DNA of 64,000 nucleotides, taken from the NCBI RefSeq assembly GCF_001983935.1, contig NZ_CP017641.1:4092001-4156000 (forward strand), read 5' to 3'. Below, one piece after another: positions 12,078 through 29,149 of this stretch. This DNA is from Fuerstiella marisgermanici. Its GTDB lineage: Bacteria > Planctomycetota > Planctomycetia > Planctomycetales > Planctomycetaceae. Each line of letters opens with the position of its first letter. The stretch's first letter is position 1. Under the pieces are notes generated by a model that saw nothing but the letters and a program-made list of their open reading frames with translations, did not search any database and was not told the origin of the DNA. Made by a program: the position numbers and the translations under genes.

Positions 12078-12959
12078 CTATGTGCCTGATTGCCGCGTGG
12101 CTTCAGCAAAGCTCTGACCAATGTTCAGCGTGAGCCGGTCTTCGCCCGATTGAATCACGACGCTCTCCTCATTCACATCGACGATCTGACCGCTCAAGGC
12201 TGTGGTATCGAAGTCGGCTCCGGCGGCCAACTTGTGAACTCGATCATTGATCTGCTCTGTAATCCACGCCGTTGGAATGCCGTTGCGGTACGTCACCGCA
12301 CTTAGGATCGTCAGCTTCATAGGATCCTGATTGTTAATGCCGATCCCAAAGATGTTGTCGCGTGCAATCACACCGTAGTCTCGCAACTGATCAGACGCCA
12401 GGTTGCCTGACGTGCCTTTGGGAAGCGACTTTCTTTTGGCGCCCGGCACCACCAACGCTTCGACGCTCATTGACCAATCGAACTGGCCTGACGTCGAAAC
12501 GGGACTAAGCCGCAGATTGACAATGCGATGCAGTTGAGCCGAATTTTCGATCTGAAAAAGAGCGGTCGTAATTTGCGGCAAAGTTCCTCGCGCCTGCACG
12601 TTGAAAGGCATGGACCGATACAAGCCGCGACGATTGGCGGGCGAACCGGAATCCACCGTCGCACTTCTTAACTTTGCGGACCGAACTGTTTCCAGCAGCC
12701 AGTTTCGGTACAGCGATCGAGCCGTTTCCGTATCGGATGGCAGCGACATCTTTTGCCACGCCACAATCTTCTGACCGGCTTCACGGCTCTCGGCCAACAA
12801 GGCTTCGCGCTTTTTGATGTTCTCACGCAGTTCGTTGTTCTCGCCATTCAACTGCCGCAGCGGGCCCTGAATCATGGACGACAGCACGTAGTCGCCCGCG
12901 CGAGCGACGCCCATTAGAATCAGCAACCCAAGCAGAATTTGTTGTCGCTCCAGCTTCAT
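12078..12959 (-). CDS. gspM: GspM/PilO-like inner-membrane protein of the secretion system
   Basis: 293 residues. One N-terminal membrane segment (about 5-25) is followed by a coiled coil (LRQLNGENNELRENIKKREALLAE, about 35-60) and a ferredoxin-like domain around 115-170, as in GspM/PilO. The C-terminal 100 residues (VIARDNIFGIG, then ILSAVTYRNGIPTAWI and a final VIQSGEDRLTLNIGQSF) look like the GspC/PilP homology-region type, so this may combine M and C functions; no separate gspC is seen. It overlaps the preceding gspL-like gene by 4 bp (ATGA). Assigned from position, topology and the coiled coil rather than strong identity. Confidence 0.7.
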   Translation of the reverse strand: MKLERQQILLGLLILMGVARAGDYVLSSMIQGPLRQLNGENNELRENIKKREALLAESREAGQKIVAWQKMSLPSDTETARSLYRNWLLETVRSAKLRSATVDSGSPANRRGLYRSMPFNVQARGTLPQITTALFQIENSAQLHRIVNLRLSPVSTSGQFDWSMSVEALVVPGAKRKSLPKGTSGNLASDQLRDYGVIARDNIFGIGINNQDPMKLTILSAVTYRNGIPTAWITEQINDRVHKLAAGADFDTTALSGQIVDVNEESVVIQSGEDRLTLNIGQSFAEATRQSGT

Positions 12960-14614
12960 CGCTGACCTCCCGAAGCTGTGGCCTTGATACTCTTGCTGCT
13001 GCCGGTCGGCGCCTTAGCAGTCTTCGGGGCGGGACCTTTTGTTAAAGCTTTCGAAGTCGTCTTGCTGGCTGCCTTAACGGACGCAGCAGCCGCCACTTCG
13101 CTGGGTTCGGCCGTGCGATGGCTGGTGTACTTGTCTTTGCTGCGACTTTTCAACGGCATCGTGGTTTGAAAACTCCAGAGACTCTTCTTGCCGTCTTTGA
13201 TCTCTCGAATGCCTGGCGTTTTGGGTGCGTGCCAGGAATCGCGGAGTTGTTCTTCCATTTTGCGAATCACATCGGGACTCTGGCTGATTCCTCGAAACGA
13301 AACCGTGTAGCCAGAGCCAGACGCTGCACCGGAGAACTGCTGCAGAACCAGTTCCGGACTGGAAGGCGTGCGAATGGTGATGTCGCGAAGTTCGTCCAGC
13401 CAGTTCAGGCGACTCTTTTCCCAGGCCGCCAGTACTTTGGCCAGGTTGCGTTTGGAACGCGTTTCTTTCACAAGTTCATCCAGTTCACGCAGCCGTGCCT
13501 TCAACACAACATTTTCTGCCGTCGCGTCAGCAAACTGCATATGAACGTAGTACCAGCCGACGCCGATCAAGACGGCTGCTGCAGCCACAGTGGCCAAAAT
13601 GCGATTACGTTTTTGAGTGGCTTTGGGCGGACGTTTGGGATGCAGGAAGTCGACTGGCGGGGGCTGCCCCATCGCCGTTAGCTTTAGAGTCGCCACCAAA
13701 GGAGCGTAAGCGCTTAACGAAGCATCACCGGCCTCGCCTTCGACCAGCGAACGCATCGACTTTCGATCAACCCCAATGCCCAGTTGATCCGTAAGAGCCG
13801 CGACCAGGGCGGACGATTCCAGTTCGGAACCAATCACGACCACGTGACCGATTTCGATGTCCGGTCCGTCGACCGATTCGGCCGTGAGCAGTGTTCGAGA
13901 AACTTCGACGGCAATATACTCGGCTTCCTCATCGCCCTTCATTGCCGGAGCCAGCCGCAGACTTCGCGACATGACGGGAAGCTGGCGGTGCGTGACCAAC
14001 ATGTGAGCCGACTGATGCCCTTTACTGATGAGCAGCGTCGCCGACGAATCGTCTTCGTCTGGTGGAGGAGCAAACAGCGACAGTGAGTGAGTGACCACAA
14101 CTACGCTGGCTTGAGCACATCCGGATTCGGTTGCAAGCCGCTGAACCAGTTGCTGATCTGCTTCGGCCAGTGCCATAGCGTTTACGGTGCGACGACCTTC
14201 GTCGGTTTCCGGAAAAGCGATGAAGTCAATTACACTGTCTTCCGTCATTCCCGGCAACTGTCTTAACGCCATGTTGCGGACGATCGCCGGAAGTTCAGCG
14301 TCACTCGCCGGCGGAACAGCAAACGTCGCCGAATCGACCATTGCTCGATTCACACACAGCAGCAGCCGAGCCTTCGATGCTTTGAGTTCCTTCACCAAAG
14401 CGACAAGACATGCGACCGGATCTGTTTCCGCAGATGCCGCTGCGGGCGCGGCATCTTCTGCCGTGCTGGCATCCGTAGAATCATCCGACGCAGAAGGCAG
14501 CGCGGTCGGGCGCTCTCCTGACTGAATGACGCGCAGGACGCCATTCTTGCCTGATTCGCCGTAGACGAATCGCAGTGAGAACGGGTTCCAGCTGACAGCG
14601 AGTAGTTTGCTCAT
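12956..14614 (-). CDS. gspL: GspL-like protein, PilM-type actin fold joined to a PilN-like part
   Basis: 552 residues. The first about 310 resemble the cytoplasmic actin-like fold of PilM/GspL (N-terminal MSKLLAVSWNPFSLRFVYGE; VVVVTHSLSLF; LLISKGHQSAHML), with an acidic Ala-rich insertion at about 40-65. A single membrane segment at about 340-360 (ILATVAAAAVLIGVGWYYV) leads to a coiled coil and a PilN-like periplasmic domain (LDELRDITIRTPSSPELVL, then VSFRGISQSPDVI). A Lys/Ala/Ser-rich tail follows. It should couple the GspE ATPase to the pseudopilus assembly platform. It lies 8 bp after gspK and overlaps gspM by 4 bp. Confidence 0.8.
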   Translation of the reverse strand: MSKLLAVSWNPFSLRFVYGESGKNGVLRVIQSGERPTALPSASDDSTDASTAEDAAPAAASAETDPVACLVALVKELKASKARLLLCVNRAMVDSATFAVPPASDAELPAIVRNMALRQLPGMTEDSVIDFIAFPETDEGRRTVNAMALAEADQQLVQRLATESGCAQASVVVVTHSLSLFAPPPDEDDSSATLLISKGHQSAHMLVTHRQLPVMSRSLRLAPAMKGDEEAEYIAVEVSRTLLTAESVDGPDIEIGHVVVIGSELESSALVAALTDQLGIGVDRKSMRSLVEGEAGDASLSAYAPLVATLKLTAMGQPPPVDFLHPKRPPKATQKRNRILATVAAAAVLIGVGWYYVHMQFADATAENVVLKARLRELDELVKETRSKRNLAKVLAAWEKSRLNWLDELRDITIRTPSSPELVLQQFSGAASGSGYTVSFRGISQSPDVIRKMEEQLRDSWHAPKTPGIREIKDGKKSLWSFQTTMPLKSRSKDKYTSHRTAEPSEVAAAASVKAASKTTSKALTKGPAPKTAKAPTGSSKSIKATASGGQR

Positions 14615-14622
14615 GAAAAATA

Positions 14623-16278
14623 TCAGAATTCCGCGACGGCGGTTTCTAAACGACCAATCGATAAAGAAAGACCTAATTCAGATCGATCAAGCCAGTCTAG
14701 TCTTCGAGGAGATTCGTTGGCAGCATCGATCGTGACTTTTCGCCGCAGCACGGGGCCTCCGACCGGACGATAAACGATGATTTCGCCTGTATGGACATTG
14801 CCGCCCGTTGTCAGGTGCCGATAGATACGCCGGTACGTCGGGAGATCGACGATTTGGCGAGTCAGCAGCCACAATGTTGACTGCCGTTCAGCCTGGTCAA
14901 TACTTTCTCGTTGTCGAACCAGTTGCGACGCGGCGGCCGGGTCGTCGATGAGTGCTCGCAGAACGGCCTCCGATGCATGGTTGATATTGATTCGGCCGGT
15001 GACGACATCTGTCGATTCCGTCGTCAGTCGATCCTCCAGCAATGCAAACGTCGCCAGTGACGAAGGTTCGTCCGATCGCAGTGGACTGTTCACCAGCTGC
15101 CCTCCAACGGATGGCGGCAACTGTACGGAAGAATCGACAAGGTCGCTCAGATTAGTGATTGGTAGCGACGGCGACGCAGAGGCGTGGCTTCGCAATTCCG
15201 GCGAATTCGTACTGATGGTCAGCGGTGGGACACCGGGCGAAGTGGAAAAAGAAATCCCAAACAGACGGGCCAACACCACATAACGAGCAACGTCTTCGGG
15301 AAGAAAAGCCTGCAACCGTGATTCCAGTTCCTGCAGGTCGCTTGCCGTCACCGCCGCTGTGTCGCCGTTCAATCGCAGCCGCATTTCTCCGCTTGAGTCG
15401 CTGTTGCGTTCGGCAGATACCACCGTCAGATGCTGATGCCAGCCGTCGGCTTCAGTTTGATCTGTTGAAGCGTCTCCCGTTTGAACTTCCGAACGACCAC
15501 TTCCGTAAAACGCGGTTCGTGATACACCCTTGACGAAAAGAAGTTCCTCCAAGCTTTCGGGGACAGAGTTACGAACACGATACGGACGGTCCAGCCTCAG
15601 ATAGTATTCGGATTCTGCGCCGAATTCGCGAACGTCATCGTCAGCATCGATCCAGTCCAGAATGCCGTCGGCCGCTTCGTCTGTCATGCCGGGAATCTGC
15701 AACAGTGCGCGGCGGCCCCTGCCCGGTTCTTCGAAATCCCACTGCAACACAGTCGCCAGGTGCAGACGCGACGATTCGTTTTGAAGACCAAACTGGATTG
15801 GCGAATTCTGCAGGTTGGTTTCGTCGAACTCACTGCTCAGCTGTTCCAATCCCGAATCTGCCGCGGCAGCCAGATCTACGTCAGGCATGTCTGCCACCAC
15901 GGCGAACCGCCACATTATATCGAAGTCGGTCGAACGGTTTTCTGACGCTTCACTCAGGCCGTCCGCATTCGCAGTCGGCAGGTCTGTAAACGTAAGCGTC
16001 TTCGCCTGAAACAGGTGCGGCGCGTTTTGCAGCCTTGGAACCTGAGCAGGAAACTTCGCCCGTTGTTCGCAGATTGTCAGCAGATAGCTTTCCGCACTAA
16101 ACAGCATCTGTTGCCCCTGCAGCAGGTCGCCGTTGATTCGTGCCGCTTCGTATTCGGTCGTCATTTCGGCCAGAAAGCCAAAGCCTGCCAATGCGATCAT
16201 GACGACCAAAACCAGCACGACAATCAAAACGACGCCGTGTCGATCAGCCTGCCGCGAGCTTCTGAAAAATCGTTTCAT
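14623..16278 (-). CDS. gspK: Minor pseudopilin GspK
   Basis: 551 residues, longer than the usual 300-400. The N-terminus has a prepilin-like hydrophobic stretch (HGVVLIVVLVLVVMIALAGFGFLAEMTTEYEAARING), then helix-hairpin-helix/SAM-like segments typical of GspK: LLQIPGMTDEAADGILDWIDADDD at about 190-212 and PESLEELLFVKGVSRTAF near 240. A second such region near 440-455 (GRININHASEAVLRALI) matches the T2SSK family. It caps the pseudopilus tip with GspI and GspJ. It overlaps gspJ by 4 bp. Confidence 0.88.
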   Translation of the reverse strand: MKRFFRSSRQADRHGVVLIVVLVLVVMIALAGFGFLAEMTTEYEAARINGDLLQGQQMLFSAESYLLTICEQRAKFPAQVPRLQNAPHLFQAKTLTFTDLPTANADGLSEASENRSTDFDIMWRFAVVADMPDVDLAAAADSGLEQLSSEFDETNLQNSPIQFGLQNESSRLHLATVLQWDFEEPGRGRRALLQIPGMTDEAADGILDWIDADDDVREFGAESEYYLRLDRPYRVRNSVPESLEELLFVKGVSRTAFYGSGRSEVQTGDASTDQTEADGWHQHLTVVSAERNSDSSGEMRLRLNGDTAAVTASDLQELESRLQAFLPEDVARYVVLARLFGISFSTSPGVPPLTISTNSPELRSHASASPSLPITNLSDLVDSSVQLPPSVGGQLVNSPLRSDEPSSLATFALLEDRLTTESTDVVTGRININHASEAVLRALIDDPAAASQLVRQRESIDQAERQSTLWLLTRQIVDLPTYRRIYRHLTTGGNVHTGEIIVYRPVGGPVLRRKVTIDAANESPRRLDWLDRSELGLSLSIGRLETAVAEF

Positions 16279-17405
16279 CGAAACGATCCCTCCATGCCAC
16301 CCGCCAATGCGCTGACCGGACTGTGGACAGCATCAAGCAAAATGGTGCGTTCGAATCGCGTCGCACGGATGACCGTTGCGGACTCGTCCGCACCAGCTTC
16401 CGACAGCGTCGAAGCATCAGCGACTGAACCATCGCCGGTTCGCGCAGCGAACGGGTCAGCGTCGGGACCGGGCGGGTTCAGAAGGTCCATCTGCTGAACA
16501 TCGGTGCCGGAAACCACATCCAGGGATACTCGCACAGCGACTGGCAGACGGGACTCTTCATTCGCCGACCAATAGCCCTGCCAGGTCTGCCCGTTGAAGT
16601 ATTCGAACTGACAGTCCACAACTTCCGGAATTCGTTCGAAGCTAACAGCGGGCATTTCCGATTCTGTGTCTTCGGCATCATCAGCAAGGGAATCAGCCGC
16701 CGGAAACAGCAGAGCTTCCAAGGTCGCTCGCCCGACGCCCACATCATCGGTCGCCATGTTCTGCTCAGCTGTCGATTGTTGAGCGATCAGCGATTGGAAC
16801 TCAGCCGTGTTCGCCTGCAGCCGATACAAGCCGCTGCTTAGCGAATTCAGACTGTCCGCCCCGCCTGGTGCCTGAAGTTGATAGACAATGGTCTGAAATT
16901 CAGGCACGTCAACGGTTTCGTCGTCGGGCACCGGCGAATCGCTGGACAGCGAACCACCACCCAATTCATTCAGCAGGTCCATGTCGGATGGTGGTTCACG
17001 AACGGGTACCACAAAGCGTCGCACGCTTAACCGCATCGCGGTGGAGGTTCCAATCAACGAAAGCTGTACGGGCGGGGCCCCGGAAGGGGGTTCGTCGTCA
17101 AATGAATCTGCAAAATCCGGAAGACTGAATTCCAGCGTCTCTGAAAGGTCATCAATGGCCGCAGCCACCACAGGCTCTGACGGCGCAATAACTCCGCTCA
17201 GGTCTTCGTCGATCAGTTGAAAAACAGAACGCACTAACTGTTGCTGCGTCGTCTGATCTCGCCCCGCCGTCAGCAGGCTGTTGTACAGCGACATAACGCC
17301 CCACACTGACGACATCAGCGCCGATACCAGCACCATCGAAATGATCATTTCGATCAGTGTGTAGCCGCGACGTCGACCGATGCGGATGTTTGATTGGCCG
17401 GTCAT
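16275..17405 (-). CDS. gspJ: Minor pseudopilin GspJ
   Basis: 376 residues. The prepilin signal reads RRRGYTLIEMIISMVLVSALM with the conserved Glu after processing, followed by a pseudopilin-type head with acidic, Pro-rich insertions. The family motif region FEYFNGQTWQGYW near 275 and LPVAVRVSL near 290 fit the GspJ C-terminal fold. It is probably processed by a prepilin peptidase encoded outside the window and incorporated at the pseudopilus tip. It overlaps gspI and gspK by 4 bp each. Confidence 0.88.
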   Translation of the reverse strand: MTGQSNIRIGRRRGYTLIEMIISMVLVSALMSSVWGVMSLYNSLLTAGRDQTTQQQLVRSVFQLIDEDLSGVIAPSEPVVAAAIDDLSETLEFSLPDFADSFDDEPPSGAPPVQLSLIGTSTAMRLSVRRFVVPVREPPSDMDLLNELGGGSLSSDSPVPDDETVDVPEFQTIVYQLQAPGGADSLNSLSSGLYRLQANTAEFQSLIAQQSTAEQNMATDDVGVGRATLEALLFPAADSLADDAEDTESEMPAVSFERIPEVVDCQFEYFNGQTWQGYWSANEESRLPVAVRVSLDVVSGTDVQQMDLLNPPGPDADPFAARTGDGSVADASTLSEAGADESATVIRATRFERTILLDAVHSPVSALAGGMEGSFR

Positions 17406-17929
17406 CGGATGTCTCCGAGTAGCCCCGATTCCATGTCCGAAGCTGATTCTTCAGACGGTGAAATCCTGACCCAGCGATTCAACCGAAACGTCGTGGGCCG
17501 TGCAATACTGCCTTCCGGTACGACAGATTTCACCACCACCGACAAGAGTGTTAACCCGGGAACTTCGTCAACAGGTTGAGTCAGCACAGAATACGTCCAT
17601 TGCTGTTCGCTGCGTTGCACAGAAAACAACGCCGCTGCGGAGCTTGCTTCAGCGTTCAAGTCGGTTTCATCCGCGAACGCGGCCGCCGGTTGTAGCTGCG
17701 CCTGCTGCACGGGTTCCAGAGGTCTCAGGCCCAGCACAATTTCGTTGAGCGTTTGTTCGCACACGCGCTGAGCCTCGTCGTAGCGCTGTGCTTTCTGGCC
17801 AGTCGTGCGGCCCATTCCTGCAAGCCGAGCCAGGACGATGACGCTGCCCATTAAGATGGCGGTCGCCACGATGACTTCAATCAAACTGAAGCCTCGCCGC
17901 CGCTGATGTAACGTTGCACGTCGCATCAC
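17402..17929 (-). CDS. gspI: Minor pseudopilin GspI
   Basis: 175 residues with an N-terminal prepilin signal RRRGFSLIEVIVATAILMGSV and a GspI/PulI-like continuation (ARLAGMGRTTGQKAQRYDEAQRVC, then EIVLGLRPL). The head domain carries a long acidic stretch near 100. GspI forms the tip complex with GspJ and GspK. It overlaps gspH and gspJ by 4 bp each, giving tight translational coupling. Confidence 0.87.
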   Translation of the reverse strand: MMRRATLHQRRRGFSLIEVIVATAILMGSVIVLARLAGMGRTTGQKAQRYDEAQRVCEQTLNEIVLGLRPLEPVQQAQLQPAAAFADETDLNAEASSAAALFSVQRSEQQWTYSVLTQPVDEVPGLTLLSVVVKSVVPEGSIARPTTFRLNRWVRISPSEESASDMESGLLGDIR

Positions 17930-18639
17930 AGTGACCTCGCCAATGGCACTGAGCCGTCATCGATCGCTGCGGCCATCACGCTGGCTGGCAGGCGAAACGG
18001 AGCTGAATAGCTAACCGCCGACGTCAAGCCTCGAAGACTGACCGTAACAGCGAAGTCTCGGCTGCCGATCACCGTCAACGACGCATCCGTGCTGCGCCCG
18101 TTGGGGCGAAACGGAATCGGCTCCGACCACGCCGTTACCGAAGAATCCAGCTCCACATTAACATCGACGTCCTGTGCGACGGATGTCTCCTCAGCAACCT
18201 GCAGCGCACTTTCGGCGGCCGAAAGAAATCGCACGCCATCCGGCAGCAAACCTTCCCGAACAACCTTACTCACGAACGACGCTGCGTCGGAATCGGCTAT
18301 GCTCGAATCGGCGGCAGGGCCGGAGTCCAAATCGTTAGCGGATGCGAAGGGCGAGGCGTTTGTTCGCTGAATCTTCCACCGCCGGCCGCCGGATTCGTAG
18401 ACGAATTCGACGGCCACACCTTCGCGAATCGCCGTCGCTCGTGACTTAGCCAGGCCCGCCTGAAGTTGTCGCCCCGCGGCGCGCAAGCGGCTCTTGTCCA
18501 GCGGAGCTCGCATGGCGGGCAGAGTGAGCGCGGCCATTGCGGCCATCACCGCCAGTACGATCATCATTTCGATCAACGTAAACCCACCGCGATGCGGTGA
18601 GCTGCACGGTCGAAAGTTAGATCGGACTGACTGGTTCAT
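17926..18639 (-). CDS. gspH: Minor pseudopilin GspH
   Basis: 237 residues. The prepilin signal HRGGFTLIEMMIVLAVMAAMAALTLPAM is followed by the GspH/FimT-type helix-to-sheet transition LRAAGRQLQAGLAKSRATAIREGVAVEF. The head domain contains an insertion rich in Asp and Ser (about 100-120). GspH joins the major and minor pseudopilins. It lies 9 bp downstream of gspG and overlaps gspI by 4 bp. Confidence 0.88.
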   Translation of the reverse strand: MNQSVRSNFRPCSSPHRGGFTLIEMMIVLAVMAAMAALTLPAMRAPLDKSRLRAAGRQLQAGLAKSRATAIREGVAVEFVYESGGRRWKIQRTNASPFASANDLDSGPAADSSIADSDAASFVSKVVREGLLPDGVRFLSAAESALQVAEETSVAQDVDVNVELDSSVTAWSEPIPFRPNGRSTDASLTVIGSRDFAVTVSLRGLTSAVSYSAPFRLPASVMAAAIDDGSVPLARSL

Positions 18640-18648
18640 GGTACTTAC

Positions 18649-19230
18649 CTATTCCAAATCGTCTCCGGCCATATCACCGCCTTCGCCGGCCGTACCATCG
18701 CCCGTCCAGCTTACGATGTCGTCGTCCGTGTTTTCCTGAGCATCCGGGCCAAGCGACCAGATGTCCGGGACATTCATTTTGTTATGCGTTGGAGGAAACT
18801 CATACCGGTAGCTGTTGCCCCACGGATCTTTGGGGAGCGTTTCGGTTTTGATGTAAGGGCCATCCCATGGCGTCGAACCGCCGTCGCCGCTCGCATCATC
18901 GCCTTCCAGTTCCAATGCCTCACCGCCGTCTTCGCCGCCACCACCCTCACCGGACGCGTCTGCTGCAGGAGCCGCAATCAGGGCGGCCAGGCCCTGTTCG
19001 CTGGAAGGGAATCGATTCATGTCAATCGCGTAGCGTTCCAGCGAAGCCTGGAACATTCCGATCTGCGTCTTCACGGAATTGATGTCGGCTTTCTCCTTGC
19101 TGCCCAGCAGGCGAGGCCCCACAAGGGAGACCAGCAGTACCAGAATCGCCATCACGATCAGCAGTTCGGTCAGTGTAAAACCACGCCGAATCGTGCGGCG
19201 GAATCGTTGAGTTGTGTGTTGTTTCTTCAT
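18649..19230 (-). CDS. gspG: Major pseudopilin GspG with an acidic Gly-rich insertion
   Basis: 193 residues, longer than the usual about 140. The prepilin signal is RRGFTLTELLIVMAILVLLVSLVGPRLLG, then the GspG pattern KTQIGMFQASLERYAIDMNRFPSSEQGLAALI and DPWGNSYRYEFP. An unusual acidic Gly-rich insertion (about residues 92-118: GEGGGGEDGGEALELEGDD and more) sits before the calcium-loop region, and the C-terminal tail is also acidic (DDDIVSWTGDGTAGEGGDMAGDD). A strong Shine-Dalgarno (GGAGGAGA) precedes the ATG, as expected for the highly made major subunit. Confidence 0.92.
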   Translation of the reverse strand: MKKQHTTQRFRRTIRRGFTLTELLIVMAILVLLVSLVGPRLLGSKEKADINSVKTQIGMFQASLERYAIDMNRFPSSEQGLAALIAAPAADASGEGGGGEDGGEALELEGDDASGDGGSTPWDGPYIKTETLPKDPWGNSYRYEFPPTHNKMNVPDIWSLGPDAQENTDDDIVSWTGDGTAGEGGDMAGDDLE

Positions 19231-19272: not shown

Positions 19273-20481
19273 TTAACTCATTGAGGTACTCATTTCGAAC
19301 ACAGGCAGCAACAGCGCGACGATGACAAACAGCACTGCGCTGCCCATCACCATCAGCAAGGCTGGTTCGATGAGGCGGACCATAGTGTCCAGTTGCCGAG
19401 CCACCTTTTTGTCGATGCCGTCGGCGATGTTGTTCAAAACGTTTTCGAGGTTGTTCGCTTCTTCCGCAATTCCGATCATGGCCATCACGTTTGGCGGGAT
19501 CAGGCCGCATTTGGACAAGGGAGCCGACAGACTTTCGCCGGAAGAAATGTTTTCCGCCGATTGACGAATCGCTGTCCCCAGAACGACATTGCCGGCCGAA
19601 TCGCTGCTGATTTCCAACGCCTTCAACATGGGAACTCCGTTTCGCAACAGCGTGCCCAAAATTCGACAAAAGCGTGAGGTGGCTCCGTTCAGGAAGATTG
19701 GTCCGAAGACCGGCAGCTTCGTTTTGACGCCGTCAATCTTCTGCCGTCCCGATCGAGAGGCAGCCCACTTACGCAACCCGTAGATCGCTCCGGCCATCGC
19801 CATCGCGACCAAAATTCCGAAGCGTCCCAAAAAGTCGCTCAACCAAAGCAAAATGACAGTAGCCGTTGGCAGTGTTCCCTGCCGTTCCAGTTGAGCGAAC
19901 AGGTCCGAAAACTTCGGGACGAAGAACACGATCAAAACAAGGGTCACGATGGACCCCGCTGTCGCAAGGAATGCTGGATAGGCCATCGCCCCACGCACTT
20001 TGGATCGCAGTTCTTCCGTACGTTCCAGAAACTCGGCCGTCTGCTGCAGCGATTCTTCCAAAAACGCGCCTTCCGTTCCGGCGCGCACAATACTGATGGT
20101 CAATTCGTTAAATACGTCTTCATGGTGGCCCATGGCTTCGTGCAGTTGAGCGCCTTCAGAAATGCGTGTGCGGATGTCTGACAGCACAGTCTGCATGCGT
20201 TCGCTGGGCGACTGCTGCATCAGCACTTCCAGCGACTGCAGCAAAGGAACTCCGTTCGCCAGCAGGTCGGAAAGTTGAGTCAGCGTGTTGGCCAGCAGTT
20301 CGGTTTTGATGGGCCGATTGAAGTTCAGCGAAAACGATTGAGACTTCGCCGGATGCACATCAATCGGACACAACGCTTTTTCCGAAAGCATCGCCATAAC
20401 TTCGCCGCGCGAGTCGGCAGTGATCAGGCCGCGAACGTCCTGCCCTGTCATCGACCTGGCGGTGTAAGCGAATTCCTGCAT
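19273..20481 (-). CDS. gspF: Type II secretion inner-membrane platform protein GspF
   Basis: 402 residues, normal for GspF/PilC. Two T2SSF cytoplasmic domains (about 70-190 and 270-395) each precede hydrophobic segments: YPAFLATAGSIVTLVLIVFFVPKF, GRFGILVAMAMAGAIYGL, and the C-terminal VIVALLLPVFEM. Motifs SERMQTVLSDIRTRISEGAQLHEAM and GTLLRNGVPMLKALEI are characteristic. It is the platform on which pseudopilins assemble. The ATG overlaps the gspE stop (TAATG), indicating coupling. Confidence 0.93.
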   Translation of the reverse strand: MQEFAYTARSMTGQDVRGLITADSRGEVMAMLSEKALCPIDVHPAKSQSFSLNFNRPIKTELLANTLTQLSDLLANGVPLLQSLEVLMQQSPSERMQTVLSDIRTRISEGAQLHEAMGHHEDVFNELTISIVRAGTEGAFLEESLQQTAEFLERTEELRSKVRGAMAYPAFLATAGSIVTLVLIVFFVPKFSDLFAQLERQGTLPTATVILLWLSDFLGRFGILVAMAMAGAIYGLRKWAASRSGRQKIDGVKTKLPVFGPIFLNGATSRFCRILGTLLRNGVPMLKALEISSDSAGNVVLGTAIRQSAENISSGESLSAPLSKCGLIPPNVMAMIGIAEEANNLENVLNNIADGIDKKVARQLDTMVRLIEPALLMVMGSAVLFVIVALLLPVFEMSTSMS

Positions 20482-22184
20482 TAGTCAGCCTTGGTAACTC
20501 GCAGAACTTCGTCGATGCTGGTCAGACCACCAAACACTTTGCGCCAACCGTCCTGTCGCAAGGTCTTCATCCCATTGGCCATCGCGGCTTTGCCAATCAC
20601 GTCTGAACCGACTCGGTCATGCGCAAGTTTGCGAATTTCGTCGTTAGTCTTCAGCAGTTCATAGATTCCCAGCCGACCCGAAAAACCGGTACCTCGACAC
20701 GACCGGCAACCCGTCGGTCGATAGATTGTGGCGCCGTAGGCCACTTCATCGAAGGGGAAATCGCCGGGTACTTCATCGTACGTCGGCGTGTACTCTTCGC
20801 GACATTCTTTGCAAAGCGTACGAACCAGTCGTTGAGCCACAATGGCTTCGACCGTGCTGGCGACCAGAAACGGCTCGACGCCCATGTCGATCAGTCTCAT
20901 GAACGCACCCGCTGCATCGTTGGTGTGAAGAGTGCTAAACACCATATGACCGGTCAGTGATGCCTGGACTGCGTTTTCAGCCGTTTCGAAGTCACGAATT
21001 TCCCCGATCAGCACAACGTCCGGGTCGTGTCGCAGGATGCTGCGTAAACTGGCGGCAAACGTCAGGCCAACCTTGTGGTTCACCTGAATTTGGTTGATGC
21101 CTTCCAGCTGATATTCGATCGGGTCTTCTGTCGTAATGATCTTGTTGCGTTCGCTTTTGATTTCTGCCAGCGAACTGTACAGCGTCGTTGTCTTGCCAGA
21201 GCCCGTTGGCCCCGTGACCAGCACGATTCCGTGAGGCAGCCGGATCAAACGCTGAAACTGTTCGTTAACGTCTTCTTCCATGCCGATGCCAGCCAGCGAA
21301 AACGACATCGCATCTTTGTCCAGCACTCGCATGACGACGCTTTCGCCATGCAGCATCGGAATGATGGAAACGCGAATGTCCACTTCACGACCGGACACGC
21401 GAATTTTAATACGACCGTCCTGGGGAACTCGCTTTTCCGCGATGTTCAGGTGAGCCATGATTTTCAGGCGGCTGATGATGGCCGCCTGGAATCGATTTAG
21501 TTCCGTCGGGACCGCTTGAGTCTGCAGAACTCCGTCGACGCGATAACGGATTTTCAGGCCGGTGACCTGAACCTCCATATGAATGTCGCTCGCCCGCGCA
21601 TTCACGGCTTCGACCAGAATGTCGTTCACAAGGCGCACCACGGAGGCTTCCTGAGCCATCGCGGACGCTTCGGATTCATCGAATTCAAGATCGCCGATCA
21701 CTTCAAGGCCGTCGTCGTCGTCTTTGGCCTGAGCCATCAGCCCGTCCAGCGTTTCTGCTCCGACACCCAGATGCGTCTTAATCAACGTGGCGACTTCGTG
21801 CGGCAGTGCGAGCACCGATTCGACAAACAGCCCGGTCGCCGCAGAAACCGCGTCGATGCCGTGAACGTCGAACGGATCAGACACCACGATCTTGATCGTC
21901 GTGTCATTTTTGTCCACGGGGAAAACGCCGTGACGGTGAACGAGTCGCACGGGAAACCCAGACAGCAATGACGCATCCGGCGCTTCGCTGGCCAGATCGA
22001 TCACCGGCAGCCGCATGGCATCGCCTATGCCGCGCAACAGATCCAGTTCGTTGGTAAACCCAAACTCCAGAGCCAGTTCGCTAAGCTTTCCGCCGTCGGA
22101 AAACACATTGCGAATTCGCTTGAGATCAGCTTGTGAGAGGCGGCGCGCACGATCCTCAGCGGCCACACGAAGTGCAGTACTCAT
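20481..22184 (-). CDS. gspE: Type II secretion ATPase GspE
   Basis: 567 residues. The N-terminal MshEN-like domain (about 1-140) leads to the T2SSE core: Walker A at 325-332 (GPTGSGKT), Asp box ITTEDPIEYQLEGINQIQV, Walker B-like DPDVVLIGEIRD and His box HTNDA. The tetracysteine zinc motif (CKECREEY at about 465 and CRSCRGTGF at about 495) is complete, as in GspE rather than PilT. It powers pseudopilus assembly through GspF and GspL. It is the first gene of the compact gspE-D run and lies 194 bp after the giant repeat gene. Confidence 0.95.
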   Translation of the reverse strand: MSTALRVAAEDRARRLSQADLKRIRNVFSDGGKLSELALEFGFTNELDLLRGIGDAMRLPVIDLASEAPDASLLSGFPVRLVHRHGVFPVDKNDTTIKIVVSDPFDVHGIDAVSAATGLFVESVLALPHEVATLIKTHLGVGAETLDGLMAQAKDDDDGLEVIGDLEFDESEASAMAQEASVVRLVNDILVEAVNARASDIHMEVQVTGLKIRYRVDGVLQTQAVPTELNRFQAAIISRLKIMAHLNIAEKRVPQDGRIKIRVSGREVDIRVSIIPMLHGESVVMRVLDKDAMSFSLAGIGMEEDVNEQFQRLIRLPHGIVLVTGPTGSGKTTTLYSSLAEIKSERNKIITTEDPIEYQLEGINQIQVNHKVGLTFAASLRSILRHDPDVVLIGEIRDFETAENAVQASLTGHMVFSTLHTNDAAGAFMRLIDMGVEPFLVASTVEAIVAQRLVRTLCKECREEYTPTYDEVPGDFPFDEVAYGATIYRPTGCRSCRGTGFSGRLGIYELLKTNDEIRKLAHDRVGSDVIGKAAMANGMKTLRQDGWRKVFGGLTSIDEVLRVTKAD

Positions 22185-22378: not shown

Positions 22379-25300
22379 TCACTGTCGCAACACATCGTTC
22401 AAAATCCGCATAACGCGAGACGAATTGGCCTTCTTCAGAGGCAACAGCGTGATGCCTCGGGCTCGAGTTGTTCGAGACGCTTCGTCGAGCCGCTGAACAA
22501 GTGCTTTCACTTCGTCCAGCAATTCCTGTGGAGCCTTGATCACCAGCGAGTTCGTGTCAGCCTGCACTTCGACGGTCAACAACGGTGAGGACGCGGCCGC
22601 ATTGATCTGACGCAGCACGGACGCCACGTTGGTCGGCACGCCTTTGGGGATGGCAATGTTACTGCGAGGCCCGCCCGACCGTTGCTCAGCCGAATAGACG
22701 CCCTGAATCACGTCTTCAACTCGAGCAGCACTGGCGTACTGCAACGGGACGACCTCCGTCTGAAACGATCGCCGCGTGTCTTCGTACTTTTCGGAATCCA
22801 AAATCTCCAGTAGCTGTTCAATGCGCGCACGATCCGCTCGACTGGCATACACAATCAACGCATTCAACCGCTCATCAGGAACCATCACTACGTTGCCAAA
22901 ACTGAACAGCCCATTGCTGTCGTCAAAGACCTGCTGCAGCGTTGTCGACACGTCCACGGCTCCGGCATTCGTCAGTTGATACACACCGAAATCCTGATTG
23001 CGACCTCCGGCGCCCGGACGAGAATGGATCGCTCGCAGCAACGATTCCAACTGGTCCAAAGCTTCCGCATCGTCGGAAGCGATCGTGAGCCGCCCGTCTC
23101 CGGGAACAATCACAACGGCCGGTGGCTCTGTAGGCGCTTCTTTCGGCGACGATTCCGAAAGCGTTTTCTGTGAAGGTTCGGCTTCTGGTGAGCCTTCCGT
23201 CTTTGGCACAGAGGCTTCGGTTTCGGTCTGCTTTGAAGGTTCATCGCGCAGCGCGGTCAGCACGTGTCTTGAACTGCGAGCTTCAGCGTACTGGAAGTCC
23301 TGAGACGGAAGAGCGCGATTCATCGACGTGGCTTTGGGACGCATCACCTTGATGGGATTGCGACGTATCTTCGGCCACAGATCCTGAATCCTTTTGATGG
23401 TGTCATCCACATTGTCGCCCACGGGGATGATTCGCAGATTCGGATTGGACTTTTCGATGCCAGGCGCGCCGAGTCCCACTTCACCCATCTTCATCAACAG
23501 CGTCCTCATTTCCACCAGTTGAGTCTTCGACGCCTGCACCCAAAGCTGCTGCGTGTCATCGTCCGCATAAACAATCGGTTGATTGATCTCGTTGGGGTAC
23601 CGGCTACTGATCAGGTTCTCGATCGCCATCTGAGCAGTAAACGGTTCCAGGTAGGTCAACTGAAACACGTCTGCCTCGCGAGGTTCCGGGCGGCCGAAGC
23701 GAGCGATCGCATCTTTCGTCAGCGTGTGGCCCGCCTGATTTGTGGTGACGAGCAGATTGCCGGTGGCCGCTTCGTGATGAACTTTCGAACCGGGATAACG
23801 TTCGACCAGCATGTCCTCCACAACCTGCCGCACTTGTTCCTCATCCAGGTCTTCGATCGGATAAACCTGCAACGTATACGCGGCGGCGCCATCTTTGGGG
23901 TCAAGGTCGGCCAGAGTTTGTTCGATCAGAATATGCTGATCAGGGCGAGCAATCGCGACGACCGCCTGGTTGACTTCGTCCAGCGACAGGCGAACTTCGT
24001 CCGTTCTTTCGAATAGATTTTCCAGCACTTCGACCACGGTTTCGCCGTCCGCCTGATTAAGGCGATACGTCTTTGGAGCGGGCCGGTCGGCCGACTGATC
24101 TTCCCCGTTCATCTGCTTTACAACGACATCGATGGTTTTGTGCTGCTCGGCGGTTGCCGTGGCCACCAGCACTCTGTCTCGCCGGTCTGTCACCAGCGTG
24201 GCTTCGGGAAACAAAGAACGCAGCGCGGTTTGAGCGGCGTCCGCATCACCGATGTTCATACGATAGGTTTTGGTTTCGACACCTTCGCCACCGATCTGAG
24301 ACTGCGTCATCTGCTTCACGACAGTTTCAATGGTTTGATGCTGTTCGGGCGTCGCGGTGGCCACCAGAATTTTGTAACGCCGATCACTCACCAGCGTGGC
24401 GTCGGGGAACATCGATTGCAGAGCCGTTTGAGCAACATACGCGTCGCCAACGTTCATTGAATAGGTTCTTGTTTCGACACCTTTTCCACCAACCTGCGAC
24501 ACGGACATCTGCTGCACAACGGATTCGATCGTCTTGTGCTGTTCGGGCGTGGCAGTAGCCACTAACACCTGCCCCAGTCGGTCGGTCACCAGCGTCGCAT
24601 CCGGAAACAAAGTTACCAGTGCTGTCTGAGCCGCAGTCGCATCGCCTCGGTTCATGCGAAACGTTTTCGTTTCCATGCCGGCAGTGATGCGTGACGCTGT
24701 GATCTCCTGAATCAGTGCAGCGATTTTCTCCTGCTCTTCCGGCGGAGCACTCACCAGAATCTCTGAACTTCGACGTTCAGCCGATATCAGCACGTCTTCT
24801 GAAACGAGTGGCTCCAGAGCCAACTTGACCGTAAAACCGTCCAGCGGCTGTACTCGGTAAACGGCTAAATCGCGTTTGATTTCTTCACCGGGCTCTCCGT
24901 CGAATTTCTTCATGATGTCGGCGATTAACGCGTGCTGATCTTCGCGAGCGACCGCAACCAATCGGCCAGTCCGTTCGTTCACTGATACTCGAACCGCATC
25001 GGTGCGAGTGAACAGGCTGGTCAGCACTGACTCCGCCTGCGCGGCCGAAACGTTTTCGACGCTGTACACAACAGCATAAGGAGCATTTCCAACAGTTCCG
25101 CCCGCCGCAATTTGCTTCGTAATGTTCTCAATCATCGCGTGCTGTTCAGGTGTCGCCGTGGCAACAATCAGCTTGCGTTCGGAATCCGTGACGATGGTGA
25201 CGTCCGGGTAGAGTGCCAGCAACACTTCCTGAGCTTCGTCTGCGTTCGACCGGCCGACCAGGTACGTTTTCGTTTCGAGTTCACTGTTCGGTTTCAGGCT

Positions 25301-28300
25301 GGACGTGATCTGTTCGATGGTAGCTTTGACTTTCTGCTGCTGTTCCGGAAACGCTCGCACATACAACTTGCGCCCCGTCGCATCGACTGTGATATTCACA
25401 TCTGCATCGATCAACGGTTGCAGCACTGTTTGCACGGCTGTCGGATCGGTGCCGCGGATGTCGTACACAACCAAAGCTTTTTCGGGAGTCGCCTTGCCCG
25501 CAGTCTGCAATTTCTGCAGAAGTTGTTCGACTCTCTCGTGGTCTTTTTCTGTCGCGACCACCGCAATCTGGTCCGGCATCGCGCCGCTGCTGATGGCCGC
25601 TGTCGGGACCGACTGAGCCAGCACGGTCGTTGCAGACGGGCCTGCGTCTTTGATTGAGTACAGTTTCAACGTGGTGTCGGGGGCAAATGGTTTTTCAGTC
25701 GTCAGTTGTTGCAGAGTGGCTTCGACCCTTTGATGTTCGTCGTCTGTCACCAAAGCCAGCAGTCGCTTGGAATCCTGAGTCACCGTGAACACAACCGTCG
25801 GTACAGCGGTGGCCACCACCGTTTGAGCCTGAGGGCCGCCAGCAGATTCGATGTCGTAAAATTTCAGAGTGCGTTTTGCTGTGGCGGCGGGCGATTCGGC
25901 CAGTTGCGTCAGCGTGGTTTGAATCTTCGTTTTAGTCTCACCATCCACCAAAGCCACTACAGACTTGCCATCCTGTGCCGTAATGAACGAAACGTCAGGC
26001 ACCAATTGACTAAGAACGGCCATCGCGTTGGAGAGTTCCACATCGGTCACGTCAAACGTTTCGACGCGGCGGTCCACTTCAGGCTTCTGCAAACCTTTTG
26101 CGATACGTTCGATAATGGCGTGTTCGTGAGGCATTGCCCATGTCAGCAGTTTGTCGCCAGCGAAGACGGCCTGTGCATTCGGCGTGGCTTCTCTCATCAC
26201 GCGCAAGACGCCGATCATGTTTTTAGACGAAACACGATACTCTTTAAATTCCGCCGCATCGGCACCTTGCTTAGACATGGCTTCGACGGTCTCGCGAATG
26301 GCGGCCTGATCTTCGGCCGTCGCCAGTGCCGTCATCGTTTGAGCGATCGGGTCCAGCACAAAGGTCGCGTTGGGAAAAGCGTTTTCGAAGAATTGCTGTT
26401 CAGTCGCACTCTTACTGTGCGAGGTCGGATAAGTGACGGCCGTACGCTTTTGCAATGGCGTCGAAGCAGACTGCAAAGAATCCAGCAACGCGGCCACCTG
26501 CTGCTGCTGTTCCAGACGAGCTCGCACGATGAATGTCTGCCCCGTCGTGTCATGAATCACGGTCGCTCGCGGGACTTCCGTGTTCAGCAACTGCAGCGCA
26601 CTCACCGCATCAACGCCGTTAACGGGGTACACCATTAACTTGATTTCCGTTTCGCCGTCGACGTCACTGTCGAGTTGCTGAATGGCGGAGCGGATCGTTT
26701 CATGAACCTCTGGTTTGGCATGGATCAATAGCCGCGACGCCACCGCGTCCGTCGTGATTTTCACATCGGGAAACAGTTCCGCCAACACCGTAGACACGCT
26801 CGCGACGTCGATTTTAGTGATCGGGTAGACCACCAGCCGAGGTTGCTCTTCCGGCGGCACGTCGCGTTGCAGTTGTGTCAGCACCTCAGCCACGATCTCA
26901 TGTTGCGAAGGAGTGGCCCAGACTGTCATTTCTCCCGGTTGAGCGTCCGTCAAGACCTGCAGGCCAGGCAGTTCCGTTGTCAGGCTGGCCAGCACGGCGG
27001 TGAATCTTGTTCGCTGTTTCGCGGTGACATCGTAAATCTTCAGACACCGCTTTTCGTCCGCCGGCGCAGTTGCTTCCAGTTTGGCCAGAGTAGATACGAC
27101 AACGGCGTGATCAGCTTTGCTGCCGACGACGGAAAGCCGATCGGCTGCGGCTTCAAACGTCACCGTCGCAGTCGGCAGCATGGCCGTCAGCACGGCCGCT
27201 GCGTTGGTTCCTGAGGCCTTTTTGAGCGTGTAAAACTGAAGATCTGGTAGCTCGCCGCCCCCGTCCTGAGACACCTGGGCCAAAGCCGCGGCGATCGCTT
27301 CGTGATCTTTCGGAGTGGCCGTGATCAATAACCGACGGTTGGCCGTGTCTGATGTCACCGTCGCTGAAGGCGTTAGACCAGCCAGCAACGCAATCGCTGT
27401 GTCGGCGTTGACTTTCGGATTCAGCGGATACGATTTTAGCTCTCCTGGGTGAACACCGGCTGCCTGGGGTTCCAGTTGCAGCAGCAATTCGCGAATCGCC
27501 TGATGATCGGTCAGCGTTCCGATCGCGATCAGACTGCTGGTACGCGTGTCCAGAGTAATACGTGCATCCGGCAGTAACGCGGTGACCAGACTTTGAGCGG
27601 TCGCTGGAGCAATGTCTTTTAGCGGATAGACCTCCAGTTGCGTGCGTCCGTCGTTGGGCTGTTGAGCCATCATTTCTTCCAGCGACTTCGCGATGTGCAG
27701 CTGGTCGGCCTGATTGGCCCATGCCACCAGTTTGCGGCTGGCTTCGTCGTAACGAAACTGAGCGTCGGGTGCGATCAGCTTCAGCGTTGCCAGTACTTCG
27801 ACCGAATCGGACGGCCGCGCAGAATACATCTTCAGCACCGGCTGCTTGTCCGGTCCCTGGTTGGATTCCAGTTGCTGAATGATAATTTTCGCTTTGGCCT
27901 GTTCATCCGGAATCGCGTTGACGGAAATCTGGCTGGCAGCGGCATCGACGACCAGAGTTCCTTCGATGATGGTCTTCAGAACTTCACCCGCCTGTTCCGG
28001 GTTGGCATGCTTGATGGGGTACACGACCAGTTGAGGTTTCGGTGGCGGGCCCGTCGGCGTTGCGGGAACTGCGGGGATCGGAACCTGCTGCACAACATTT
28101 TGAATCGTGCGAACGCTGGCGGCGGAATCCACTACTAACAACTGTTGAGTGGCCGTCAACACTTCCGCTTTTCCATACGTGCCCAGCAACGGCTTGATTT
28201 CCGCCAGCACCGTTTCTGCAGGTCGCCCCTGCATCGGAATCAGCACACTGACAAATTCGAACCGACCACGAGCATCCAGCTCGTCCACGGTGACTCGCGG

Positions 28301-28921
28301 AATCGCGTTGTCCGGCAGCCCCTCCTTCAGGTTCAGGCACATCAACATGCGTTCGCGGCGAACCAGCGTGTACCCCTTGGTCATCAACCACCCGTTTAGC
28401 AGGTCGACCGCTTCCGTCGGCGTGTATTCCTTGGTGTCGGAATAGTTAAATGTTCCGGGCGGCGGTGCGTCCATCACCAAAGACAATCCGGCTTCGTCCG
28501 CGACCCAGTCCAGAACAGCCGTCCACTTCTGAAAACGAAAGTTGAACTTCAGTCGCGGCTCAGGCGCTGCGTCTTTCACGAATGCGGAACGCTGCGGCTC
28601 GGTCAGTACGGCGGCCAGTTCCGTCATGGCTTTGGCCATCACGCCAGCTTTGGCGGCTTCATCCGCAGTCGCCAGAGCCGCGTCGCGTTTGGAAATGATC
28701 TCAGCAATCGCCGCCTTCTGTTCGGCCGACAATCCCAACGTGGCCGCTGTGGCAGGATCGGCCAGTCGACCGTAGTCGACCGCCTCCGCTTCCGCCTGCG
28801 CGGCGAAAGCCTGACATCGTGGGGCGACGGAAGCGCACAGCAGGATAACGGCAATGACGATTGTGCAGCGCTGTGTGGTGGTCACAACAGGCAGGCGCAT
28901 CTGTCGGAAAATGGTGAGCAT
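22379..28921 (-). CDS. Giant secreted protein of about 27 secretin N-domain-like repeats, no secretin barrel
   Basis: About 2,180 residues from the ATG at 28921, which places a signal peptide (hydrophobic core TIVIAVILLCASVAP) near the N-terminus; an in-frame start at 28987 adds 22 unlikely residues. After an Ala-rich helix comes an STN/N0-like domain (about 121-196). Then about 26-27 units of about 60-75 residues follow, each an N1/NolW-like pattern: strand (LVVYPIKHANPEQAG), helix, strand (ATLVTDR), strand (VLVATATPEQH) and helix (ETVVKQM). The protein ends in half a unit and has no secretin beta-domain. The same fold stacks in GspD, encoded downstream in the same block. It probably lies in the periplasm as a long rod, sleeve or scaffold for the secretion machine; this role is inferred from fold and position. 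Ordinary N-domain proteins are far shorter. Confidence 0.85.
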   Translation of the reverse strand: MLTIFRQMRLPVVTTTQRCTIVIAVILLCASVAPRCQAFAAQAEAEAVDYGRLADPATAATLGLSAEQKAAIAEIISKRDAALATADEAAKAGVMAKAMTELAAVLTEPQRSAFVKDAAPEPRLKFNFRFQKWTAVLDWVADEAGLSLVMDAPPPGTFNYSDTKEYTPTEAVDLLNGWLMTKGYTLVRRERMLMCLNLKEGLPDNAIPRVTVDELDARGRFEFVSVLIPMQGRPAETVLAEIKPLLGTYGKAEVLTATQQLLVVDSAASVRTIQNVVQQVPIPAVPATPTGPPPKPQLVVYPIKHANPEQAGEVLKTIIEGTLVVDAAASQISVNAIPDEQAKAKIIIQQLESNQGPDKQPVLKMYSARPSDSVEVLATLKLIAPDAQFRYDEASRKLVAWANQADQLHIAKSLEEMMAQQPNDGRTQLEVYPLKDIAPATAQSLVTALLPDARITLDTRTSSLIAIGTLTDHQAIRELLLQLEPQAAGVHPGELKSYPLNPKVNADTAIALLAGLTPSATVTSDTANRRLLITATPKDHEAIAAALAQVSQDGGGELPDLQFYTLKKASGTNAAAVLTAMLPTATVTFEAAADRLSVVGSKADHAVVVSTLAKLEATAPADEKRCLKIYDVTAKQRTRFTAVLASLTTELPGLQVLTDAQPGEMTVWATPSQHEIVAEVLTQLQRDVPPEEQPRLVVYPITKIDVASVSTVLAELFPDVKITTDAVASRLLIHAKPEVHETIRSAIQQLDSDVDGETEIKLMVYPVNGVDAVSALQLLNTEVPRATVIHDTTGQTFIVRARLEQQQQVAALLDSLQSASTPLQKRTAVTYPTSHSKSATEQQFFENAFPNATFVLDPIAQTMTALATAEDQAAIRETVEAMSKQGADAAEFKEYRVSSKNMIGVLRVMREATPNAQAVFAGDKLLTWAMPHEHAIIERIAKGLQKPEVDRRVETFDVTDVELSNAMAVLSQLVPDVSFITAQDGKSVVALVDGETKTKIQTTLTQLAESPAATAKRTLKFYDIESAGGPQAQTVVATAVPTVVFTVTQDSKRLLALVTDDEHQRVEATLQQLTTEKPFAPDTTLKLYSIKDAGPSATTVLAQSVPTAAISSGAMPDQIAVVATEKDHERVEQLLQKLQTAGKATPEKALVVYDIRGTDPTAVQTVLQPLIDADVNITVDATGRKLYVRAFPEQQQKVKATIEQITSSLKPNSELETKTYLVGRSNADEAQEVLLALYPDVTIVTDSERKLIVATATPEQHAMIENITKQIAAGGTVGNAPYAVVYSVENVSAAQAESVLTSLFTRTDAVRVSVNERTGRLVAVAREDQHALIADIMKKFDGEPGEEIKRDLAVYRVQPLDGFTVKLALEPLVSEDVLISAERRSSEILVSAPPEEQEKIAALIQEITASRITAGMETKTFRMNRGDATAAQTALVTLFPDATLVTDRLGQVLVATATPEQHKTIESVVQQMSVSQVGGKGVETRTYSMNVGDAYVAQTALQSMFPDATLVSDRRYKILVATATPEQHQTIETVVKQMTQSQIGGEGVETKTYRMNIGDADAAQTALRSLFPEATLVTDRRDRVLVATATAEQHKTIDVVVKQMNGEDQSADRPAPKTYRLNQADGETVVEVLENLFERTDEVRLSLDEVNQAVVAIARPDQHILIEQTLADLDPKDGAAAYTLQVYPIEDLDEEQVRQVVEDMLVERYPGSKVHHEAATGNLLVTTNQAGHTLTKDAIARFGRPEPREADVFQLTYLEPFTAQMAIENLISSRYPNEINQPIVYADDDTQQLWVQASKTQLVEMRTLLMKMGEVGLGAPGIEKSNPNLRIIPVGDNVDDTIKRIQDLWPKIRRNPIKVMRPKATSMNRALPSQDFQYAEARSSRHVLTALRDEPSKQTETEASVPKTEGSPEAEPSQKTLSESSPKEAPTEPPAVVIVPGDGRLTIASDDAEALDQLESLLRAIHSRPGAGGRNQDFGVYQLTNAGAVDVSTTLQQVFDDSNGLFSFGNVVMVPDERLNALIVYASRADRARIEQLLEILDSEKYEDTRRSFQTEVVPLQYASAARVEDVIQGVYSAEQRSGGPRSNIAIPKGVPTNVASVLRQINAAASSPLLTVEVQADTNSLVIKAPQELLDEVKALVQRLDEASRTTRARGITLLPLKKANSSRVMRILNDVLRQ
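24086..24679 (-). repeat. Three near-identical tandem 198-bp units inside the giant gene
   Basis: Units at 24482-24679, 24284-24481 and 24086-24283 encode 66-residue modules beginning GMETKTF, GVETRTY and GVETKTY, sharing TLFPDATLV-like and ATATPEQH motifs. They are far more alike than the other repeats in the protein, showing recent in-frame duplication. They cover about residues 1415-1612. Confidence 0.85.
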
Positions 28922-29149
28922 TTTGCTTTTTTCGGTACGGCGGGAAGGCGTCCAGGAAGGAGCGGAGGCAGGCAAACGCCACGCCAACCGCGGACTGGTA
29001 GGTATTCAGCAGGATACCTCATAGACCACCGTCGCTCCAGCACTTTCTATGGCGCGTTCGCCAGTCAAAAGTGCTTCGCGCTCATGCGCCCCTATCGTCG
29101 ACCAGTCACCCATAGGGATTGTCGGCGCAGCGAAACTGGATTTCATCCA

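Follow-up and report, generated by a model that had tools for sequence, protein, structure and literature searches.

A giant barrel-less protein of Fuerstiella marisgermanici is probably the N-terminal part, with an amplified N-domain, of a type II secretion secretin split over two chains

The planctomycete Fuerstiella marisgermanici (Planctomycetia; Planctomycetaceae) carries, directly before the genes of a type II secretion system (T2SS), a gene for a 2,180-amino-acid (aa) protein that consists largely of repeated secretin N-domains and has no secretin barrel. We analyzed this gene, hereafter the giant (22379..28921, minus strand), within a window of 64,000 nucleotides of contig NZ_CP017641.1 (positions 4,092,001 to 4,156,000; assembly GCF_001983935.1), in which all coordinates below are given. 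Since the giant is collinear with the N-terminal part of single-chain secretins in relatives and has the N0 domain missing from its partner GspD, it looks like one half of a split secretin. By our sequence comparisons, it is probably the N-terminal half of the T2SS secretin, in which amplification of one N-domain has made the periplasmic channel longer. Within this proposal, the fold of the units, the co-inheritance with GspD, the presence of N0 on only one of the two chains, and the collinear single-chain equivalents are well supported, while a role of the array as a long periplasmic channel wall is our best guess.

Secretins usually consist of one chain whose few N-domain rings cross a narrow periplasm. 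In the system described here, the periplasmic part would be a chain of its own, several times longer, and relatives show fused, split, short, and amplified forms. Like a natural experiment, this variety makes it possible to ask what the N-domain rings are for and by what means a secretion machine spans a periplasm of unusual width.

Domain organization of the giant protein

The open reading frame of the giant starts from a TTG and covers 22379-28987 on the minus strand, and the ATG at 28921 opens a typical signal peptide. A hydropathy scan placed the signal peptide region at residues 1-40 (28802..28921); it is the sole strongly hydrophobic stretch of the protein, with cleavage judged by eye to fall near AFA/AQ. 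Because the Pfam N0 model (PF21305) performs too poorly on this phylum to locate N0 (E = 0.084 on the giant), we used a local N0 profile seeded from the giant's own N0 domain, which placed it at residues 124-198 (28328..28552; E = 8e-39), where it was also modeled with high confidence. An N1-like domain follows at residues 222-281 (28079..28258); the protein's own unit profile matches it weakly (E = 0.11), and it is seen in the structure model and conserved in the family alignment (A1).

The bulk of the protein is an array of 22 Secretin_N units with a period of ~66 aa (residues 300-1740; 23702..28024), delimited with a profile made from the giant's own sequence. It is followed by four longer Secretin_N units (residues 1752-2150; 22472..23668) that make up the conserved C-terminal block of the family; one of them has a linker insert, some are weak profile matches, and the limits of one were set by eye. 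The last element of the chain is half an N-domain (residues 2156-2180; 22382..22456). The N1-like domain, the 22 regular units, and the four longer ones give about 27 full units, the number that a preliminary description made from the DNA letters had reported after an N0-like domain; with a general local Secretin_N profile, the count is 25. Pfam Secretin_N (PF03958) matches the giant with an E value of 1.4e-100 over 17 stretches. The array is far beyond chance and has been retained in many species.

The same description had found no secretin beta-domain, and the barrel family PF00263 indeed has no Pfam match on the giant at E values up to 1. None of the genome's secretin barrels lies between the giant and gspE, which are separated by 194 bases. 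Against the NCBIfam GspD equivalog TIGR02517, the giant scores 214.8 bits, under the cutoff of 351.35. Thus, of the features of a T2SS secretin, N0, Secretin_N domains, and linkage to T2SS genes are present on the giant, and the barrel and a TIGR02517 score above the cutoff are not. Like GspD proteins such as PulD and XcpQ (TIGR02517), the giant combines N0 with Secretin_N domains and is encoded with gspE-M; unlike them, it lacks the barrel and has about 27 N-domains, compared to three after N0 (PMC8134430).

Predicted structure of the units

AlphaFold models were made of two segments of the chain as monomers, the second on an alignment of nonoverlapping windows of the giant (A4). The first (residues 118-562) yielded an N0/N1 pair with a mean predicted local distance difference test (pLDDT) score of 79.0 and a predicted template modeling (pTM) score of 0.40, whereas the second (residues 1281-1682) yielded repeated beta-alpha-beta-beta-alpha units (mean pLDDT, 77.6; pTM, 0.41). 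The best PDB match of the N0-N1 model was XcpQ N0-N1-N2 (2.6e-10), and those of the array model were a T2SS entry and GspD-type secretins (2.6e-08). At E values up to 0.001, all 39 matches of the first model and 37 of the 39 matches of the second were chains of secretins or of T2SS, type III secretion system (T3SS), or type IV pilus entries; the T3SS and pilus chains we take to be secretin subunits. The two other matches of the array model were MurAA and CASTOR1, with probabilities of 0.44 and 0.66.

Since nearly all of these PDB matches are chains of secretins or secretion machines, we rejected an unrelated repeat family. Together with Pfam Secretin_N, these PDB matches agree with the earlier assignment of the units to the secretin N-domain family. 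In the models, then, the giant's units have the secretin N-domain fold, and they would stack as rings if they behave as those of known secretins do.

Distribution and linkage to T2SS genes

At E values up to 1e-20, the N0-N1 profile (alignment A1) matched 308 of the 397 genomes available for the class, fused chains included; it also matched 21 of 148 genomes in a phylum-wide draw, 16 of which were class members. To these searches we added a map of 78 stretches, which were chosen rather than random: the best matches, then giants, then short forms from the matches listed. The mapped short forms are about 950 to 1,800 aa long, with 4 to 8 units. Giants, with 16 to 42 units, were found in 31 genomes and form uninterrupted frames in 27; the gene is divided between two frames in G001 and between contigs in G006 and G022, and it is also broken in G027.

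A giant that ends in half a domain, in a family whose genes are sometimes broken, could be a decayed or misassembled secretin gene that has lost its barrel. We consider this very improbable, given that 27 uninterrupted giants and 34 short frames across families have the same kind of end and that the window comes from a single-contig genome of 8,920,478 bases. A frame error or barrel loss in this one genome was rejected because the 27 giants share this kind of end.

In 27 of the 31 giant-bearing genomes, the giant lies within ~6 kb of T2SS genes, in keeping with the link to secretion genes drawn in the preliminary description. The next T2SS gene within 3 kb is gspE in 21 of the 31 and gspF in one (G006). 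The giant follows a gspD-lipoprotein gene pair in three genomes (G217, G294, and G328) and a lipoprotein gene in G220, where GspD is encoded just upstream of the giant; in G214, a divergent gsp operon lies 6.1 kb away. Outside the class, a giant of 2,117 aa directly precedes gspE in G490, an assembly with 6% contamination.

N0 is present on one chain of the pair

The GspD of the window (7672..11625, minus strand) begins directly with Secretin_N units, which match in nine stretches (at E values up to 10), followed by the barrel (PF00263, 4.1e-45). It scores 388.9 bits against TIGR02517, over the cutoff, and has no match to the local N0 profile. Among the mapped GspDs, 22 lack N0, 16 of which are linked to giants, and none of the 16 giant-linked GspDs has N0 by the local profile, which does detect N0 on other GspD chains as well as on fused and barrel-less ones. 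Given this pattern, N0 sits on the giant chain. In 9 of the 22 N0-less GspDs, the first Secretin_N match falls at most 60 residues from the frame start, so that there is no space for a signal peptide plus N0.

Fifteen genomes have a giant without a mapped GspD beside it, and a search with the window GspD found a close relative in all 15. For these 15, it was the start of the alignment on the window GspD that was seen (the N0 profile was applied to the mapped GspDs): it lies between residues 10 and 32 in 12 genomes (a contig fragment in G281) and at residues 220, 381, and 382 in G214, G225, and G167, respectively. Twenty hand-picked relatives without a visible giant, which include the three giant-less genomes of the same genus, gave no GspD match (E up to 1e-60) that starts before residue 294 and no match to the window GspD better than 4e-198. 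Absence of the giant was judged in 18 of the 20 from best E values per genome of 1e-24 to 1e-44, compared to 2.3e-89 or better in giant-bearing members of the family, and in G058 and G095 from the matches listed plus the stretch fetched. On this evidence, co-inheritance of the giant with a window-type GspD is well supported.

The pattern of N0 on one chain belongs to one subfamily rather than to every barrel-less protein, as judged from the mapped pairs. Short forms of other families are paired with an N0-less GspD in G056, G063, G078, G119, and G236, as well as on contig C3 of G043, whereas the short forms that we call type B, from the same family as the giants, coexist with N0-bearing GspD in six linked complete cases (G014, G020, G028, G030:C15, G058, and G095). 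A seventh type B-linked GspD (G010), cut by a contig end, also has N0.

Single-chain equivalents and origin by fission

Seven fused secretins, 2,138 to 3,270 aa in length, unite the barrel with N0 and many N-domains on one chain. In all seven, the N-terminal part best matches the barrel-less profile and the C-terminal part best matches GspD profiles, with weaker cross-matches among the repeated domains throughout the comparison. Residues 63-1021 of the fused chain of G042 correspond to positions 215-1182 of the 1,184-position barrel-less profile, and the remainder corresponds to positions 381 to 1229 of the 1,298 positions of the N0-less GspD profile, in pieces. The barrel-less match runs in one piece in G042 and G037 and in pieces in the five other fused chains. 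No separate barrel-less gene was found in G042, G043:C16, or G052, in each of which some 9 to 10 kb upstream of gspE was seen. The fused chains of G043:C16 and G047 reach 25 and 28 units. G043 holds both arrangements: the fused 3,269-aa secretin on C16 (L052) and, in a second T2SS on C3 (L061), a split one, whose barrel-less gene lies directly before gspD.

Single chains also occur outside the class. The frames in G426:C2, G403:C13, and G479:C86 (loci L182-L188) span 5,073 aa (40 units), 4,754 aa (41 units), and 4,217 aa (43 units), respectively, and each carries N0 and the barrel; the G426 and G403 frames run from stop to stop and overlap upstream genes, so the proteins are somewhat shorter than the frames. 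The out-of-class chain of G526 is of ordinary size (809 aa, 3 units).

A tree of N0-N1 (43 rows) sets the fused and barrel-less rows apart from the N0 domains of type B GspDs (support, 100/100), while support for the giant subfamily (giants plus four short forms) is only 86/60. In a barrel tree (40 rows), all but one of the 22 split GspDs group in a single clade (99/98), which is sister to the type B GspDs (97/93); the single-chain secretins fall outside, with four out-of-class single chains beyond them. The simplest reading of these trees would be fission of a single long chain, plus a second split in G043:C3.

The chain ends fit this scenario. After the last full N-domain, all 27 giants and all 34 short forms have just the first part of another, and in three fused chains, compared by eye, that first part is followed by a linker and the second half. 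The terminal half N-domain is probably the fission scar. Most short forms finish with a long glycine- or serine-rich tail.

The giants were scanned against the profile of the short forms. In the 12 printed of the 27 scanned, the extra units map to profile positions ~487-620, mostly 528-592, and N0-N1 and the C-terminal block match once; on this mapping, one N-domain position has been amplified about 20-fold. Array units around residues 1420-1604 of the window's giant (24110-24612, minus strand) are much more alike than the others, and a 198-base tandem repeat (2.5 copies, 71% matches) covers this stretch. Their likeness indicates recent amplification.

Weighing the split-secretin proposal

The proposal that the giant is half of a split secretin has the two marks of such a split, namely, halves on separate genes of one system and a collinear single chain in relatives. 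Several observations weigh against it. The giant has no T2SS gene within ~20 kb in G025, a complete genome, and none before the contig ends in G027, G111, and G266; it is absent from three of seven genomes of the same genus. No GspC-like partner for N0 was found in the genome by Pfam (best E value, 0.53); in canonical T2SSs, N0 docks to GspC (PMC8134430). The type B GspDs own an N0, so the logic of a split N0 fails to cover the whole family, and 15 of the partner GspDs are known from their alignment starts. A long-branch warning weakens the N0-N1 tree, the placement of one unit relative to the next is uncertain in both structure models at their pTM values, and TM-scores do not exceed 0.48 among the best 50 matches listed per model.

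Some of these observations would suit an accessory periplasmic scaffold or tether, that is, a low-copy protein in its own right that works with the T2SS, keeping the membranes apart or anchoring the machine to the cell wall, and takes no part in the channel wall. The giant is a separate gene, and type B forms occur beside a GspD that already has N0; the tails of most short forms and the uncertain placement of the units in the models also fit a scaffold. However, the collinear single-chain secretins hold the same parts together with a barrel, and N0 is absent from the partner GspD, both of which point to the channel itself. We therefore regard the scaffold as unlikely.

Less likely still is that the giant arose by duplication of part of a secretin and now has another function, unconnected with the T2SS, such as that of a surface or stalk protein, and lies near gsp genes by ancestry. 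The unlinked giant of G025 would agree with this, as would a barrel-less copy elsewhere in the F. marisgermanici genome (L063), around which the 20 kb fetched showed no gsp operon. Nevertheless, the giant and the window-type GspD co-occur even when unlinked, and both are absent in the 20 relatives, making this improbable. Overall, a free-standing role is weakened by the co-occurrence and fusion data. The free chain envisaged in the preliminary description, acting as a sleeve, ruler, or scaffold, thus gives way to a half of a split secretin on the grounds of collinearity and N0 placement; its sleeve, taken loosely as a channel wall, survives as the best guess.

A possible long channel and its known counterparts

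Under the split-secretin proposal, GspD would supply the outer membrane barrel and the nearest N-domain rings, without N0, and the giant would supply the remaining rings, with N0 at the end facing the inner membrane and, presumably, the platform. The two proteins would bind into one channel, the units would stack as rings as in known secretins, and the extra length would serve the wide periplasm of these cells. It is possible, although we put it forward only tentatively, that this second protein of ~27 stacked rings completes a channel in the form of a tube ~100 nm long across the enlarged periplasm, with 16 to 42 units reached by amplification. If each N-ring adds 2.5 nm, ~27 rings would by extrapolation reach about 70 nm; extrapolation on the scale of Thermus PilQ gives at most some 150 nm. 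If the channel reading is true, the one-chain version in other classes (more than 4,000 residues) would form secretin channels longer than any known to us.

Planctomycete periplasms can be greatly enlarged (PMC5394234), and an unusually enlarged periplasm is described for Fuerstia marisgermanicae NH11, which has a complete genome of almost 9 Mb (PMC5177795). The same report counts 45 "giant genes" of more than 5 kb in NH11, and its main text does not contain the word "secretion" (PMC5177795).

Split secretins are already known from rhizobial-type T3SSs and from mitochondria, as is a six-ring secretin from Thermus. In the rhizobial type, the RhcC1 protein is short and is not known to contain a repeat array. 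The T3SS secretin of rhizobia and of some Pseudomonas syringae strains is split into RhcC1 (NolW) and RhcC2 (PMC3574062, PMC3973906), which, like the planctomycete pair, are N-terminal and C-terminal secretin genes in one secretion system but which, unlike that pair, belong to a T3SS. The T2SS-derived mitochondrial GspD has its barrel and Secretin_N domains on separate chains (GspDN1-3), and a yeast two-hybrid hint of an interaction between GspD and GspDN1 is described (PMC8134430); in contrast to the planctomycete pair, this system is eukaryotic, has single or half N-domains, and has lost N0. PilQ of Thermus thermophilus has six N-rings and a barrel, is 350 Å long, and spans most of a wide periplasm (PMC5745081). 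Its extra N-domains are stacked on one chain, whereas the ~27 units of the giant, which would likewise stack, are on a second chain. In listings of the open-access literature, supplementary files aside, neither a bacterial T2SS secretin split in two nor N-domain arrays of such length turned up.

The T2SS operon of the window and other secretin loci

The remaining T2SS genes of the window lie on the minus strand, as the giant does. As the preliminary description had it, the giant directly precedes gspE and shares its domain with the operon's GspD; this GspD also has the barrel. The secretion ATPase gene gspE (20481..22184) matches T2SSE (1.2e-134) and TIGR02533 (3.8e-186), its 619.5 bits against the latter being slightly below the cutoff of 630.25. 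It is followed by gspF for the platform protein (19273..20481; T2SSF, 5.4e-53), gspG for the major pseudopilin (18649..19230; T2SSG, 3.4e-25), and genes for pseudopilins of the gspH type (17926..18639; GspH, 1.6e-04, and N_methyl), the gspI type (17402..17929; N_methyl only, named from its position), and the gspJ type (16275..17405; T2SSJ, 1.6e-06). Next are gspK (14623..16278; NF037980, 4.6e-17, under its cutoff), a gene in the gspL position (12956..14614), named from that position without a family match and with relatives at the equivalent place of other operons, and a gspM-like gene (12078..12959; NF040576, E = 0.0036), whose position is conserved.

A lipoprotein gene follows gspD (6617..7693), with a lipobox, VSGGC, recognized by eye and an uncertain start. 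It has no Pfam match at E values up to 0.01, and a relative follows all 36 mapped GspD genes; from this position, the lipoprotein is a candidate pilotin. Upstream of the giant is a gene for a protein with propeller, peptidase-like, and PDZ matches, and a stand-alone protein at 34841-35875 (minus strand) shows a weak likeness to the pseudopilins GspG/GspH (1e-05).

Elsewhere in the F. marisgermanici genome (G000), a third N0-bearing barrel-less protein is encoded ~57 kb past the window in a 1,033-aa frame (L063, 8446-11544; G000:C1:4212446-4215544). A second gspE-K operon (L062/L064), with no gspD seen within its 38-kb stretch, is headed by a barrel-less frame of 1,267 aa, and an N0-bearing GspD with a lipoprotein is encoded 7 Mb from it in record coordinates.

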